Assembly: GCF_030068445.1 (NCBI RefSeq)
Contig: NZ_JAQPOK010000167.1
Coordinates: 1 to 35,978 of the forward strand
DNA length: 35,978 nucleotides
Origin: Roseofilum halophilum BLCC-M91
GTDB lineage: Bacteria > Cyanobacteriota > Cyanobacteriia > Cyanobacteriales > Desertifilaceae
Direction: 5' to 3'
Within the stretch, counting starts at the first letter, position 1. Each line of letters opens with the position of its first letter. The notes beneath the pieces were generated by a model, which saw only the letters and a list, made by a program, of their open reading frames with translations, was not told where the DNA came from and did no database searches. This document shows positions 4,603-10,345 of this stretch, one piece after another. Both the position numbers and the translations under genes were made by a program.

Positions 4603-5964
4603 ATGGTTGCACCGTCTCTATCCAATTCCGATCGCACAACAAGCGATCGCCGAAACGCTCCCCCATCTGACAGAAAAGACCCGAACTTACTCATTTGGCG
4701 ACCCCACGACCAGCGATATCAAACCTCAGAATGGTATACCGGTTACGGTGAAATCCAACAAGAAGAAGACCAGCGCTCATTTAAGGTTACAGCCACCTAT
4801 ACCCTACAAGCAGAAGTCAAAATTGTCCAAGGTGTTTTAGACCCCACAAACCCAATTTTGGCCAATCTTTATCGAGAGCGCGAACGCTGTGTCAGCATTA
4901 TCGATCGCACCATTGAGGAACTTTACGGAGAAACCCTACGCCACTATTTCCAAGTTCATGGAATTCCCTTAGAACTCAAAGTCTGTCGCGCTTGGGAATC
5001 CGATAAAACCCCCGAAACCGTCCATCAACTGCTCCATTTTTTAGGTAAAGAAGGCTGTGATGTTTCCCGCAACGAACCCGTTTTAGTCATCGGCGGTGGA
5101 GTTCTGAGTGATGTGGCTGGGTTAGCCTGTGCCTTGCAACATCGGCGCACCCCCTACGTGATGATCGGCACGTCCATTGTGGCTGCCATTGATGCCGGGC
5201 CTTCCCCTCGGACTTGTGTCAATGGCGAGCTATTCAAAAACAGTATCGGCGTGTATCATCCTCCGGTTTTAACTTTAGTAGACCGCAGTTTTTTCAGAAC
5301 TTTACCCATCGGTCATATCCGTAATGGAATGGCCGAAATTATCAAGATGGCCGTCACCGACGATCGCGAGTTATTTGCACTCTTAGAACAGTATGGCACA
5401 GACCTAATTAAAACCCATTTCGCCACAGTCAATGCCGATCCAGAGTTAGAAAAAATTGCCGATGAAGTCATTTATCGCGCCCTCTATGCCTATATGAAGC
5501 ATGAAGGGACGAATATGTTTGAAACTTATCAAGACCGTCCCCATGCCTACGGTCACACTTGGAGTCCCCGGTTTGAACCCGCCGCTAAATTAATGCATGG
5601 CCATGCGGTTACTATTGGCATGGCTTTTGGGGCGACTTTAGCGGAAAAATTAGATTGGATCAGTGCTGAAGACCGCGATCGCATCATCACCCTCTGTCGC
5701 ACCCTCGGTTTAGCCGTCTACCATCCCATCTTAGAAGACACCGAACTGATGTTAGCCGGCCAGCAAAACATGCGTCGCAAGCGCGGCCAAGGCGGACTTT
5801 GGGCCCCCTTACCCCACGGACAAATCGGCTCATGTGATTACGCTCAAGAGATTTCCCCAGAACTGTTGCACACTGCCATAACAGAGCATCAAACCATCTG
5901 TAGCCAGTTTCCCGATGGGGGGGCAGGCGAACAAATGTATCTGGGCGATTTAGGCTTAGAGTAA
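4603..5964 (+). CDS. mysA: Sedoheptulose 7-phosphate cyclase, MysA-type (demethyl-4-deoxygadusol synthase), divergent
   Basis: This is the first step of MAA synthesis, cyclising sedoheptulose 7-phosphate with NAD and a metal in the 3-dehydroquinate synthase fold. The protein has 453 residues. The NAD-binding segment VIGGGVLSDVAGLACAL is near 162-178. Metal ligands are likely E245 in NGMAEIIKMAV, H314 or H318 in HAYGHTWSP, and H332 in MHGHAV. Ala315 in AYGHTWSP matches the residue reported to mark demethyl-4-deoxygadusol synthases. However, the segment MIGTSIVAAIDAGPSPRTC (188-205) differs from the VPTTLIGLIDAG-type segment of the well-studied Nostoc enzyme. The first 40 residues are an extra polar tail, with no later ATG that keeps the fold. 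mysB follows after 13 bases. The genomic neighbours make an MAA role very likely. Confidence 0.88.
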   Translation: MVAPSLSNSDRTTSDRRNAPPSDRKDPNLLIWRPHDQRYQTSEWYTGYGEIQQEEDQRSFKVTATYTLQAEVKIVQGVLDPTNPILANLYRERERCVSIIDRTIEELYGETLRHYFQVHGIPLELKVCRAWESDKTPETVHQLLHFLGKEGCDVSRNEPVLVIGGGVLSDVAGLACALQHRRTPYVMIGTSIVAAIDAGPSPRTCVNGELFKNSIGVYHPPVLTLVDRSFFRTLPIGHIRNGMAEIIKMAVTDDRELFALLEQYGTDLIKTHFATVNADPELEKIADEVIYRALYAYMKHEGTNMFETYQDRPHAYGHTWSPRFEPAAKLMHGHAVTIGMAFGATLAEKLDWISAEDRDRIITLCRTLGLAVYHPILEDTELMLAGQQNMRRKRGQGGLWAPLPHGQIGSCDYAQEISPELLHTAITEHQTICSQFPDGGAGEQMYLGDLGLE

Positions 5965-5977
5965 GGAAACAACCATC

Positions 5978-6811
5978 ATGAGCGAACATCATCCAGAACT
6001 ACAGCCACCAAAAGCAGTAACCCCCCTAGGGATTTTAGTCGAGCAGTTAGAAGCCATTTCTCAACAAGCCAAATCTAGCAATATCCCCAGGGAATTAAGG
6101 GAGCAAATTGACCGCGCTTATCAACTCGCGGCTGGACTCAACCCCTATATTGAAGCCAATACCACCCCAGAATCTTCTGCATTAGCCAACCTTGCTAACA
6201 AAACCAGTCAAGAACCCTGGGAACTGCGCTTTTCCGATGGCGAAACCGTGCGTCAGTTAGAGCAAGAAATGCTCTCTGGACATCTGGAAGGGCAAACCCT
6301 AAAAATGTTTGTGTCCATGACCGGTGCAAAGCGTATCCTAGAAATTGGCATGTTCACCGGCTATTCTGCCCTCGCCATGGCCGAAGCCTTACCCGATGAT
6401 GGACAGGTGATTGCCTGTGAAATTGACCCCTATGTAGCCGAATTTGCCCAAACCTGTTTTCAGCAGTCCGCCGATGGGGACAAAATCTCCGTCAAAGTGG
6501 GGCCAGCTTTGGACATCATGAAAGACTTGGCCGAGGTGAGAGAGTCCTTTGATTTTGTGTTTATCGATGCCGATAAGGGTAAGTATATTCAGTATCTGCA
6601 ACGGCTGTTAGAGACTTCCCTATTAGCTGAAAATGGCTGGATCTTGGTCGATAATACCTTGCTGCAAGGGCAACCTTACCTGAAAATGGAACAGCGCAGC
6701 GCCAATGGAGAGGCGATCGCCCAATTTAATCGCTTTGTCACCGAAGACCCCAGACTAGAGCAAGTATTGCTTCCCCTGCGCGATGGTGTAACCATAATTC
6801 GCAGAAAGTAG
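5978..6811 (+). CDS. mysB: O-methyltransferase MysB (4-deoxygadusol forming)
   Basis: This SAM-dependent enzyme methylates demethyl-4-deoxygadusol to 4-deoxygadusol. The 277-residue protein belongs to the caffeoyl-CoA/catechol O-methyltransferase type. SAM motif I is ILEIGMFTGYSALAMAEALP (120-139). FVFIDADKGKYIQYLQ (194-209) carries the metal-binding aspartates. The block RFSDGETVRQLEQEMLSGHL (84-103), as I recall it, is nearly invariant in cyanobacterial MysB. The ATG has AAGGA a few bases upstream and lies 13 bases after mysA, so the two are surely cotranscribed. Unlike MysA, this protein looks entirely ordinary for its family. After it comes a 135-base gap holding two copies of a small repeat. 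Confidence 0.95.
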   Translation: MSEHHPELQPPKAVTPLGILVEQLEAISQQAKSSNIPRELREQIDRAYQLAAGLNPYIEANTTPESSALANLANKTSQEPWELRFSDGETVRQLEQEMLSGHLEGQTLKMFVSMTGAKRILEIGMFTGYSALAMAEALPDDGQVIACEIDPYVAEFAQTCFQQSADGDKISVKVGPALDIMKDLAEVRESFDFVFIDADKGKYIQYLQRLLETSLLAENGWILVDNTLLQGQPYLKMEQRSANGEAIAQFNRFVTEDPRLEQVLLPLRDGVTIIRRK

Positions 6812-6813
6812 CG

Positions 6814-6886
6814 AAAGTCCTCCTTTTTAAGAGAGATTTAGAGTTATTAAAAGTCCCCCTTTTTAAGGAGGATTTTCCGCAAGCGG
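6814..6886. repeat. Two copies of a short intergenic repeat plus a small hairpin
   Basis: The core AAGTCC(T/C)(C/T)CTTTTTAAG occurs at about 6816-6831 and 6851-6866, each followed by a purine-rich GA(T)TTT tail. The second copy can pair TCC...CTTTTTAAG...GGA. A tight CCGC-AA-GCGG hairpin follows at 6877-6886. The same kind of C-rich/T-run/G-rich repeat ends proW at 12567-12600. These look like dispersed non-coding repeats of the sort common in cyanobacterial spacers. They might weaken transcription between mysB and panD. Confidence 0.6.
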
Positions 6887-6946
6887 ATATGAACACGAAT
6901 CAATTAGAAATGCCATATCATCTGAATCCTAGGGAGTCATAACATC

Positions 6947-7297
6947 ATGTTGATTACCATGTTTAAAAGCAAGCTTCACCGAGTCAAAGTCACAGAAGCT
7001 CAACTCTACTACGAAGGTTCCATTACCATTGATGAAGAACTGCTCAAAACAGCCAATATTCTTGCCTACGAAAAAGTGCAAGTTGTCAATGTAAACAATG
7101 GTTCTCGTCTAGAAACCTACACCATTCCCGGCCAATGGGGAAGCCGGACAATTTGTCTGAACGGCCCAGCCGCTCGGATGAACTCAGTCGGAGATGAAGT
7201 CATTATCATTGCCTATGCTCAAATGATAGAAGAAGAAGCCCGATTACACCATCCTAAAGTCATTTTAGTCGATGACCATAACAATCCCCTAAACTAA
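6947..7297 (+). CDS. panD: Aspartate 1-decarboxylase (beta-alanine synthesis)
   Basis: This pyruvoyl enzyme converts L-aspartate to beta-alanine, the precursor of pantothenate and CoA. The 116-residue proenzyme keeps the self-cleavage pair Gly24-Ser25 in YYEGSIT, Lys9 in KSKLHRV, and the Arg53/Tyr57 region in [10 protein letters not shown]. These fall at, or within one residue of, their places in the E. coli enzyme. The N-terminus [13 protein letters not shown] matches the family pattern, which supports the ATG at 6947 over the one at 6959. The gene sits 135 bases after mysB and only 13 before mysC, on the same strand, so it is part of the MAA operon. Whether it serves CoA synthesis or supplies beta-alanine to an MAA cannot be told here. 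The C-terminal tail is shorter than in E. coli. Confidence 0.95.
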
Positions 7298-7310
7298 ATT
7301 TTATCCTAAT

Positions 7311-8675
7311 ATGGCATTGATCTTATTAATCCAATCGCGCGTATATGCTCTGTTTCAGAATCTTGCAGTTCTCGCCTTACTCGCGATTGTATTACCCTTC
7401 AATTTATGCAAAGTATTGCCCGGATGGGTATGGCTTGGGTTTAGCCAACGATTTGAACCTCAAGAAGACCCTAAACCTACCAAGAATCTATTAATCTCAG
7501 GGGCAAAGATGACTAAATCTTTGCAGCTTGCTCGTCTTTTCCAGAGTAGAGGTCACCAAGTATATCTTCTAGAAGAAGAGAAATATTGGATGTCAGGAAA
7601 TCAATTTTCTAATGTCGTTGCCGGTTTTTACACAGTTCCCAATCCTAAAAAAAACTGGAACAAATACTGTAAACATTTATTAGAAATTATCCAAACCAAA
7701 AACATAGATATCTTTATTCCCGTATCCAGTGCCGTAGGCAGTTATGATGAATCGCGACTAAAAGCAATTCTCTCCCCCTATTGCGAAGTCTTTCACTTCG
7801 ATCCGGAGATTACTGAGCTATTAGACAATAAATTCACATTTATCGAAAAAGCTAAAATTCTCGGTTTATCTGTTCCCAAATCCTTTTTGATAACCAACTT
7901 TCAGCAAATTCTTGATTTTGATTTTGCCCAAGATGGCAGTCAATATATCCTCAAAAGCATTCCCTACGACTCCGTGCGCCGTTTAGACATGACCAAGCTA
8001 CCGATGAAATCTGAGCAAGAAATGGAAGCATTTGTCAAAAAAATGCCCATCAGCAAAGATAAATCTTGGATTATGCAAGAATTTATTCGAGGTAAAGAAT
8101 ATTGTACCCATAGCACCGTTAGGAATGGTAAAATTAGACTGCATTGCTGTTGCGAATCCTCGGAATTTCAAGTCAACTATCACCATGTAGAAGAACCTAA
8201 AATTTATCAATGGGTGGAAACCTTTGTCAAAGGATTAAATCTCACGGGGCAAATCTCCTTTGATTTTATTAAAACCGAAGATGGACAAGTTTATCCCCTA
8301 GAATGCAATCCGAGAACCCATTCCGCCATTACCACCTTTCACAATCATCCCGGAGTTGCCGATGCTTATTTGAAAGACGCTGAAGATGAAACTAAAAGCC
8401 CCATTTTTCCCCTACCCGACAGTAAAGCCACATACTGGACTTACCACGAACTGTGGCGACTGACCGGTATTCGATCTTTTGGGCAATTCAAGGCTTGGAT
8501 GAAACGAATAACAGAAGGTACAGATGGCATTTTTCAATGGGATGACCCTCTGCCATTTTTGATGGTACATCATTGGCAAATTCCTGTACTTTTATTGCAG
8601 AATCTGAAAAAAATGAAAGGTTGGGTTAGGATTGATTTCAATATCGGCAAGTTGATCGAATTAGATTGGGATTAG
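7311..8675 (+). CDS. mysC: ATP-grasp ligase MysC (mycosporine-glycine synthase)
   Basis: This enzyme uses ATP to join glycine to 4-deoxygadusol, giving mycosporine-glycine. The 454-residue protein begins with a hydrophobic helix (about 12-35) that may tether it to a membrane. The ATP-grasp fold then follows: KNLLISGAKMTKSLQLARLF opens the N-domain, ILKSIPYDSVRRLDMTKLP is the ATP-binding region, WIMQEFIRGKEYCTHSTVR is the central strand, and LECNPRTHSAIT carries the metal-binding Glu and Asn. From memory, these blocks agree closely with the Nostoc MysC. Its ATG is 13 bases after panD. The coding strand is more A/T-rich than mysD. The stop codon is followed immediately by the ATG of the remnant frame at 8676. 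Confidence 0.95.
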   Translation: MALILLIQSRVYALFQNLAVLALLAIVLPFNLCKVLPGWVWLGFSQRFEPQEDPKPTKNLLISGAKMTKSLQLARLFQSRGHQVYLLEEEKYWMSGNQFSNVVAGFYTVPNPKKNWNKYCKHLLEIIQTKNIDIFIPVSSAVGSYDESRLKAILSPYCEVFHFDPEITELLDNKFTFIEKAKILGLSVPKSFLITNFQQILDFDFAQDGSQYILKSIPYDSVRRLDMTKLPMKSEQEMEAFVKKMPISKDKSWIMQEFIRGKEYCTHSTVRNGKIRLHCCCESSEFQVNYHHVEEPKIYQWVETFVKGLNLTGQISFDFIKTEDGQVYPLECNPRTHSAITTFHNHPGVADAYLKDAEDETKSPIFPLPDSKATYWTYHELWRLTGIRSFGQFKAWMKRITEGTDGIFQWDDPLPFLMVHHWQIPVLLLQNLKKMKGWVRIDFNIGKLIELDWD

Positions 8676-9008
8676 ATGATATCAAGTCCGGTGTATTACT
8701 CAATTGTAGGGTGGGCATTTTCCACTCTACAAATCTACTTTTTAAGTATTATGTATTACAGTAAATTCACCTTAGATAAACTCAAGAAAGACTTTAACAT
8801 AATCTTGACAGGCAGCAAAGGAAAATTTAATACCTTACCAGAGGTTTTACCCAGTCCATTTATTCTCGAAGCTTTAGAAGAATATCTGCCGTTAGCCGTA
8901 GCGATAGGGTCTGAAAAAGCTCGCTCTGAATTAATCGTTGCACCGATTTTAGTGGAACTCAAAATTTTGGGGATATTAAATAGTTTTTTGGTTAAAAATA
9001 ATGAATAA
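8676..9008 (+). pseudogene. C-terminally truncated remnant of a cyanobacterial hypothetical protein, probable PD-(D/E)XK family
   Basis: The frame encodes 110 residues. From Met26 (codon 8751) onward it reads SKFTLDKLKKDFN, then LPEV, then IGSEKARSELIVAPILVELK. I recognise this as the front half of a large cyanobacterial family with the pattern EKARSE-x-I-aPIL-E. Members are normally about 200 residues long and later carry a DF...VEAK nuclease-like core. Here the frame stops right after the first half, so the core is missing. The first 25 residues read through a hairpin repeat and are probably not native. The last eight bases overlap the start of mysD (ATGAATAA), so translation of this remnant could couple to mysD. 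The family identification is from memory; the truncation follows from it. Confidence 0.6.
8706..8730. repeat. Hairpin repeat between mysC and mysD
   Basis: GTAGGGTGG (8706-8714) and CCACTCTAC (8722-8730) pair with one mismatch around a seven-base loop. The GTAGGGTGGGC motif resembles a dispersed palindromic repeat that I recall from many cyanobacterial spacers. It lies inside the 5' end of the remnant frame, which suggests the segment between mysC and mysD is inserted material. Confidence 0.55.
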
Positions 9009-10065
9009 AACTCAATCGATCGAGTCTCAATTGCGCGTATTGCACCTAGCCGGTTCTCGCGTCTCGGAATTTTACCACAATCTATCGCTGATTTATGCCC
9101 AAGCCGCGATCCAACCTCCAGGGGTGAGCAGTAACTATGCAGTTGTCCATCCCGATGGGTTTTGGCAGTTGGGAACGTCTTTAGAAAACCTATCAGAAAA
9201 GATATCACTTCAGGAGATGATTGCTAAACTCCCTGAGATTAATCTTGTCATTCCCCATATGTTTTGTTTTCCTGGGATGACGAGTTTTCGAGCATTGTTT
9301 GAGGATATTTTGGGTTTACCGGTGGTGGGTTCTCCATGCCATTGTACGGCTCTAGCAGCGAACAAAGCTCATACTAAAAGTGTGGTGTCTGGGGCTGGGG
9401 TTCGTGTTGCCCAAGGGCAAGTGGTGCGCCAAGGGGATAGGGTAACCCTAGAGCCTCCATTAATTGTTAAACCAAGCTCGGAAGATAATTCTTTAGGATT
9501 AACGTTGGTTTGGAAGGAAGAGCAAATTGCTGAAGCGTTGCGAGTGGGCTTTGAACATGATGAGGTTTTGGTGGTAGAAGAGTATATCCCTGGCAGAGAG
9601 TTGCGGGTAGGGGTGATTGAGCGCCAGGGAGAGTTATGGGTAGCGCCGATGATTGAGTATTTGGTGAGTGAGGAGCATCCTATTAGAACGGTAACCGATA
9701 AGTATGAGCTGCGATCGGATGGAACGCCTTATCGACAACCGCAAAATTCGCCGGTTAAACCGGTTTGTCCTGCGGATGTGACTCCAGAGCTATTTGAGAG
9801 GGTGGCTGATGCTGCGAAGAAAGCCCATATTGCTCTAGGCTGTCGCGATTATTCTTTGTATGATTTTCGGGTACATGCCCAAACGAATGAACCCTATTTG
9901 CTGGAGGCAGGTTTGTTTTGGTCGTTTGGGAAAATTGGTATGATTTCTCGGATGGTAGAGGCTGATGGGCAAAGTTTGGATGAGGTGGTGTTGGAGGTAT
10001 GGCAGAAGGCAGCAGGGCGGACTCGTGTGGCGGGGAGTTCGTTGTTTAAGTATATTGAATGTTAA
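9001..10065 (+). CDS. mysD: D-Ala-D-Ala ligase-like ATP-grasp ligase MysD (MAA imine formation)
   Basis: This enzyme should attach a second amino acid to mycosporine-glycine, giving a UV-absorbing imine such as shinorine (serine) or porphyra-334 (threonine). The 354-residue protein has the D-Ala-D-Ala ligase fold. LPVVGSPCHCTALAANKAHTK is the segment before the ATP lid, PLIVKPSSEDNSLGL binds ATP, EEYIPGRELRVGV is the central strand, and the LYDFRVH and LEAGLF region replaces the usual metal-binding segment. The place in the operon separates it from the peptidoglycan enzyme. Its ATG overlaps the end of the upstream remnant by eight bases. The third codon positions look richer in G than in mysC, so the two genes may have different histories. 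Substrate choice cannot be read. Confidence 0.92.
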   Translation: MNKTQSIESQLRVLHLAGSRVSEFYHNLSLIYAQAAIQPPGVSSNYAVVHPDGFWQLGTSLENLSEKISLQEMIAKLPEINLVIPHMFCFPGMTSFRALFEDILGLPVVGSPCHCTALAANKAHTKSVVSGAGVRVAQGQVVRQGDRVTLEPPLIVKPSSEDNSLGLTLVWKEEQIAEALRVGFEHDEVLVVEEYIPGRELRVGVIERQGELWVAPMIEYLVSEEHPIRTVTDKYELRSDGTPYRQPQNSPVKPVCPADVTPELFERVADAAKKAHIALGCRDYSLYDFRVHAQTNEPYLLEAGLFWSFGKIGMISRMVEADGQSLDEVVLEVWQKAAGRTRVAGSSLFKYIEC

Positions 10066-10345
10066 ATTAGCATCAAAATATCATTTTGGCAGCGCTCAAA
10101 GGGAGCGAATAATTGATAAATTTTTTACTTCTTCTGAAGCACCAGTAAATCTGATAATAACTCCACCCCATTTTCGTCAGGACTACCTCATTAGACTCGG
10201 CGATCGCTTTCATAACAGGATCTGGTCTTAATTGTACTATACTCCTATTCAAGCACAGAAAAAGGGAGTCGTCGTTTATAGTGTATATAGAGCGCCCTAG
10301 TTGACTACCCATGAAGCGCTATTTGATGTTATCTCTAAAATCAGC

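Follow-up and report, generated by a model that had tools for sequence, protein, structure and literature searches.

An aspartate decarboxylase gene within mycosporine-like amino acid operons of Roseofilum and other cyanobacteria, and the MysC clade that accompanies it

The locus and its decarboxylase

The window analysed in this work is a stretch of 35,978 nucleotides, contig C167 of the genome of the reef cyanobacterium Roseofilum halophilum BLCC-M91 (G000; 4.85 Mb, 169 contigs), and it carries an operon for mycosporine-like amino acids (MAAs) in which panD, the gene for L-aspartate 1-decarboxylase, is found between mysB and mysC (Table 1). Family scans place a cyclase, an O-methyltransferase, an ATP-grasp ligase and a D-Ala-D-Ala-ligase-like gene next to each other, the combination by which an MAA cluster is recognised. 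The coordinates of the open reading frames (ORFs) bear out the order mysA-mysB-panD-mysC-orf-mysD on a single strand and both 13-base gaps, mysA to mysB and panD to mysC, which a preliminary description of this DNA had reported. The gap between mysB and panD measures 135 bases.

Table 1. Coordinates of the operon genes in the window
Feature	Position	Strand	Product and basis
mysA	4603-5964	+	453 amino acids; dehydroquinate-synthase-like sugar phosphate cyclase, first step of the MAA core; ORF and family scans
mysB	5978-6811	+	277 amino acids; O-methyltransferase, second step; PF01596, E 7.7e-54
panD	6947-7297	+	116 amino acids; pyruvoyl-type L-aspartate 1-decarboxylase (product beta-alanine); PF02261, TIGR00223
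mysC	7311-8675	+	454 amino acids; ATP-grasp ligase of the panD-associated clade, N97/E147/T342; NCBIfam PRK06849, 517 bits, cut-off 406
orf110	8676-9008	+	110 amino acids; between mysC and mysD; no family match
mysD	9001-10065	+	354 amino acids; D-Ala-D-Ala-ligase-like; in known pathways adds the second amino acid
TauD-family gene remnant	10043-10168	+	Fe/2-oxoglutarate dioxygenase; overlaps the end of mysD

PanD of the window matches Pfam PF02261 (E 2.7e-50; 169.5 bits, cut-off 25) and, over its whole length, the NCBIfam panD family TIGR00223 (161.1 bits, cut-off 106). The protein is complete, as described before; its residues 1-112 align with residues 1-112 of E. coli PanD (1ppy). Lys9 and Gly24-Ser25 had been placed correctly, while the Arg53 and Tyr57 of that description are one position too low, the actual residues being Arg54 and Tyr58. 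The Gly-Ser self-cleavage site, Lys9, Arg54, Tyr58 and Asn72, to which we presume the usual catalytic roles, are kept in the translations of the window PanD and of its mys-linked relatives. The protein thus shares its family and catalytic residues with PanD of the pantothenate pathway, but the gene sits in a sunscreen operon instead. For panD the ratio of nonsynonymous to synonymous substitution rates is 0.087 in the comparison with Roseofilum G005, where the mys genes have 0.108-0.171, and 0.164 in that with Roseofilum G004, where they have 0.111-0.171.

Sigma-70-like sites, looked for as a promoter of panD, are no more numerous in this region of the window than in shuffled sequence. The mysB-panD gap contains a pair of short cttttt-rich repeats (window 6810-6880), present too in two other Roseofilum. 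A different element, the inverted repeat CGGTAA...TTACCG, lies just upstream of the panD start in four linked loci of other genera, namely Hydrocoleum, two Okeania and Trichodesmium (L054 1181, L057 9958, L060 9957, L065 7395); it is exact in these four only, with look-alikes in L056 and L066, and is possibly an operator or a hairpin.

Recurrence of the arrangement and the MysC that goes with it

A survey of other mys clusters for an adjacent panD, which had been proposed for this locus, shows that the arrangement recurs. The GTDB species collection was scanned with the window PanD, 444 relatives were confirmed and the best 80 loci were examined. Thirteen of these 80 have panD flanked by mys genes, its place being after mysB and before mysC: a single Roseofilum, six Okeania, Hydrocoleum (its contig begins at mysB), two Symploca, Moorena and two Trichodesmium metagenome-assembled genomes (MAGs). 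Together with the window and Roseofilum G005 this gives 15 loci in six genera, in each of which the mys genes found share one strand, and given this recurrence the placement exceeds chance. The other 67 loci (4 cyanobacterial and 63 mostly Rhodothermales/Balneolales by title) showed no further mys match in the stretches covered, except for a weak 26% MysA match in L130. Beyond Roseofilum, a sodium/solute symporter gene is present in 11 of the 12 linked loci and an EamA gene in 7.

Variability is already evident within Roseofilum, where three of six genomes (G000, G004 and G005) carry panD in the mys operon, with an EamA transporter gene intervening between panD and mysC in G004. In G001 and G002 the mysABCD operon lacks panD, and a different PanD is encoded at another place in the genome; G003 has a close PanD standing alone and no mysC match. 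Among 119 relatives, 53 gave a MysC match, and panD beside mysC was seen only in Roseofilum (coordinates compared by eye). None of 40 mysC regions outside this genus, some of them cut by contig ends, contains panD, and a decayed panD is found in two of a further seven.

The known mysABCD clusters of the shinorine and porphyra-334 type are made of the same enzyme families with mysA to mysD on one strand, as here; they differ in that here panD is interposed between mysB and mysC and MysC falls into a separate clade with N97 and T342. No description of a panD-containing MAA operon was found in a search of full-text literature, subscription papers being mostly outside its scope, and the word "decarboxylase" is absent from PMC11888242, PMC13280781, PMC10510106 and PMC9918943. 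The arrangement is real and conserved, and it is not seen in the searchable literature.

In the PanD tree (109 rows, 115 columns, many forks weak), built with 29 loci of the best-scoring PanDs out of 101 genomes with a match, the 15 mys-linked PanDs form one clade (98/92) together with three stand-alone ones (a Coleofasciculus MAG, a Nostocales MAG and Roseofilum G003). This clade shares one unresolved node (90/91) with Prochloron, Cyanosarcina and 61 mostly Rhodothermales/Balneolales rows, and it is distant both from 24 further PanDs of cyanobacteria and from that of G001 and G002. The linked panD was probably acquired from a Rhodothermales/Balneolales-like source. Since the PanD and MysC trees disagree within the linked clade for some Okeania, exchange of panD alone is probable as well.

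The linked panD goes with one group of MysC. In a MysC tree of 64 rows, 21 rows form a clade (100/100) comprising 15 with an intact linked panD, two with a decayed one, one on a cut contig and three without. N97 and E147 occur in every one of the 21, and T342 in each of the 20 that extend over the site; among the 34 other rows of ordinary MysC, 32 carry H97 and 33 carry M342. With N97 and T342 the window MysC stands outside the residue pattern of ordinary MysC, an enzyme taken as glycine-specific (MysC1), the role of these sites in amino acid choice being putative. By one rule of counting, five columns are specific to the clade in MysC, one of them a first residue against a gap, leaving the four residues 87, 97, 147 and 342; the same rule gives none in MysA, none in MysB and two or none in MysD depending on the rows used, and two and none in two control MysC clades.

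MysC2 and MysC3, termed ornithine- and lysine-specific (PMC10510106, section 7), are likewise a MysC clade with a different proposed amino acid. The nine MysC2/3-like rows, assigned by tree and motif and not via a published sequence, group together (97/98) with N97 in seven and Y97 in two. N97 is therefore common to both groups; the clades are separate in the tree, with the window MysC outside the MysC2/3-like one, and the panD-associated MysC lacks the AIFSVIYF-like segment. Taken together, the residue statistics are no more than suggestive. An AlphaFold2 model of MysC from 13 rows had a mean pLDDT of 51.9 and was not used, and sequence searches revealed no solved relative of MysC, those at E 10 giving chance-level matches only.

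In order to compare the histories of the genes, 18 operons of the MysC clade (13 with intact panD, five without) were set against 12 others of the same MysA class; L054 and L179 (no mysA) and L066 (cut mysC) were left out of the 21 MysC rows. The 18 operons form one clade for MysC (100/100) and do not for MysA (approximately unbiased, AU, test p 0.00032) or for MysB (AU p 8e-6), from which it follows that panD and this mysC change together.

The clearest instance is Moorena SIO3H5 (L064), compared with its close relatives G089 and G049. MysA is 97-98% identical, and as far as the stop codon of mysB the DNA sequences agree at 93-95%. Past this stop, panD is present in SIO3H5 only and MysC is 62-68% identical to that of G089 and G049, the nearest MysC among those compared being that of Symploca (79-81%). 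Downstream the identity resumes, at 89-94% from 13311 on against G049 and at 82-95%, in pieces, against G089. G049 (99% complete, with an ordinary mysC) has no PanD match, and G089 has two PanDs, both elsewhere in the genome. Either state may be the older one; panD and mysC changed together either way.

Sources of beta-alanine and competing explanations

The reading which we favour, at a probability of roughly 0.55, is that PanD has two roles, providing beta-alanine both to a changed MysC and for coenzyme A (CoA). A beta-alanine-using MysC is the likelier interpretation because the mysC paired with panD is a changed one and the two move together. The bolder of two ideas in the preliminary description, that MysC or MysD accepts beta-alanine, is in this way supported in part and indirectly, through the restriction of linked panD to one MysC clade, the fixed MysC residues and the joint change of panD and mysC.

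The distribution of PanD bears on this reading and on its main rival. A set of 388 genomes of the order includes 19 that encode this MysC (identity of at least 68%), and all 19 were searched for PanD. In 13 the linked panD is intact. For 12 of them it is the sole full-length PanD, G710 among these having in addition a partial second copy next to it; the thirteenth, Okeania SIO1I7, has two further PanDs. The linked gene is absent in G001, G002 and G673 and carries stops in G514 and G636, and all five have another PanD. For this reciprocal pattern the Fisher p is 0.0007, a post hoc value obtained on related rows; the count excludes G699 (83% complete, no PanD found, contig truncated directly in front of mysC) and the L064 Moorena genome. 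The pattern suggests that these organisms need beta-alanine and manage with one source of it. It agrees equally well with CoA housekeeping and with a beta-alanine-using MysC, because MysC retains N97, E147 and T342 in all five genomes without an intact linked panD.

The two extra panD genes of Okeania SIO1I7 are of a long form (L173 6809-7279 and L174 6079-6543). Genes for dioxygenases of the gamma-butyrobetaine-hydroxylase type seem, by eye, to lie near both, perhaps in other clusters for beta-alanine natural products.

According to the main rival explanation, a horizontally acquired panD settled between mysB and mysC, replaced the resident panD and serves CoA supply only, the MAAs being ordinary; we regard this as quite possible, if somewhat doubtful. 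It agrees with the reciprocal pattern and with the search of the window genome for another panD, a check suggested earlier, in which the operon copy was the only PanD found (genome 95% complete) and PanC was found encoded elsewhere. The preliminary description had considered that a sole panD at this position, combined with MAAs of the ordinary glycine, serine and threonine forms, would speak for housekeeping. The first half of this holds, and with linked copies lost or decayed where another PanD exists it keeps such a role alive; for the second half, no MAA chemistry of Roseofilum was found in the literature, the passages of the single paper naming both giving none for this genus. What CoA supply leaves unexplained is that linked panD keeps to a single clade in MysC and not in MysA or MysB, that panD and mysC differ jointly at the Moorena locus and that SIO1I7 keeps its linked panD despite two further PanDs; moreover, a single shared pool of beta-alanine would produce the same reciprocal losses if MysC used it as well.

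Several observations weigh against the use of beta-alanine by MysC. A linked panD which is usually the sole full-length one is as expected of a housekeeping gene, and five genomes keep this mysC with the linked panD decayed or absent and another PanD present. Close PanDs also occur by themselves in Roseofilum G003 and Prochloron, for which no mysC was found, and in the MAGs G478 and G479 a close PanD lies away from a mysC which is ordinary (60% and 59% identical). As to the residues, with the MysC2/3-like rows set apart the clade departs at just two of the 171 columns conserved in MysC, which is not many for its stem, and many of 19 control groups depart at more; the overlap with the differences between MysC1 and MysC2/3 then has p 0.08, and G073 and G025 (L168, L169), without linked panD, also have N97. 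As to the joint change, the MysB tree still groups 14 of the 18 operons (Okeania, Trichodesmium and Roseofilum; 100/98), the MysB conflict resting on Symploca, Moorena and G673 and the MysA conflict adding Roseofilum, which is placed next to a long-branched row. The Moorena case is compatible with a misassembled contig, and a single recombination tract can take in neighbouring genes that have no function in common. Finally, the named MAAs of Trichodesmium in the passages of PMC3083659 are of the glycine, serine and threonine types, two of the most abundant being unidentified there.

That PanD feeds another step, either because MysD takes beta-alanine or because beta-alanine starts an oxidised side chain of the kind put forward for euhalothece-362, is improbable. 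Wada et al. proposed for that compound an origin from beta-alanine with alpha-oxidation (PMC4665425, section 4.11), and a TauD-family dioxygenase gene is indeed present in some clusters: full length behind mysD in two Roseofilum (G004, G005), and also in Okeania SIO3I5, Trichodesmium R02 and G514. However, the gene was found in 4 linked loci out of 15, contig ends cutting some of these loci, and it is decayed in the window; MysD of linked operons comes in two types far from each other, which share 72-89% and 40-41% identity with the window MysD, hence no single MysD goes with panD. TauD/TfdA is stated to be absent from cyanobacterial MAA clusters in passages of the GATOR-GC preprint; a cyanobacterial enzyme of this family has already been named MysI (PMC10510106, section 7), so its presence here is not claimed as new.

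Decarboxylation by PanD of a substrate other than aspartate is very improbable, as beyond the operon setting nothing speaks for it, Lys9, Gly24-Ser25, Arg54, Tyr58 and Asn72 are kept with a TIGR00223 score well above the cut-off, and a finished MAA should not be a substrate, pyruvoyl enzymes requiring a free amino group.

Neighbouring genes and expected products

Downstream of mysD the family scan finds a ProV-like transporter gene in the window. The preliminary description had labelled orf110 a remnant, which is neither supported nor ruled out by its lack of a Pfam or NCBIfam match at E 0.001; no counterpart was seen in loci L043-L131, other Roseofilum included. The window MysA is 70-73% identical to those of Okeania, Trichodesmium, Symploca and Moorena. 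Two MysA classes occur among the operons compared, at about 67-89% and about 34-47% identity to it, and the N97 MysC of G073 and G025 adjoins a very divergent MysA (34-35% identity) and MysB (27-28%).

Three Okeania loci have nonribosomal peptide synthetase genes after mysD (L056 17946, L057 18541, L060 17040). As a user of beta-alanine this enzyme found no support, for the adenylation domain of L060 keeps the aspartate in FDVSFQE, which we take to be typical for alpha-amino acids. Its specificity is perhaps for proline, as reported for Moorena MysE (PMC10510106).

If MysC uses beta-alanine, PanD would make it from aspartate, MysC would ligate it, instead of or besides glycine, to 4-deoxygadusol, and MysD would add a second amino acid, giving beta-alanine mycosporines; where it is the sole PanD, the same enzyme would also have to supply pantothenate and CoA. 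Beta-alanine would take the place of glycine by analogy with porphyra-334, whose structure and glycine position we assume here; in bostrychine-F, too, beta-alanine seems to occupy this place. The ions to be expected would have m/z 260.113 for mycosporine-beta-alanine, 333.129 with glycine, 347.145 with serine and 361.160 with threonine. Mass alone would misname the glycine and serine products, because their formulae equal those of shinorine and porphyra-334.

According to passages of PMC10510106, MysC attaches glycine to C-1 and MysD attaches serine to C-3; authors differ in how they number the ring. Beta-alanine MAAs are known: mycosporine-beta-alanine from a sea anemone (passages of PMC4665425), and bostrychine-F, or mycosporine-threonine-beta-alanine, in which C-3 bears beta-alanine and C-1 threonine (passages of PMC6627687). 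The latter comes from a red alga, however, and in these passages no gene cluster is named for either compound.

Tentatively, and with the chances close to even, a mobile panD-mysC pair may convert an ordinary MAA operon to the production of beta-alanine sunscreens and may have spread among reef and bloom-forming marine cyanobacteria, its products perhaps being misnamed or representing the unidentified MAAs of Trichodesmium. If so, it would provide a genetic route to beta-alanine MAAs, none being named in the literature passages covered, in which a precursor enzyme travels with the ligase that would use its product, and it would suggest candidate residues for substrate choice in MysC. Liquid chromatography-mass spectrometry by mass alone could then not separate some of the products from shinorine and porphyra-334, and the finding would bear on the major MAAs of Trichodesmium left unidentified in passages of PMC3083659.

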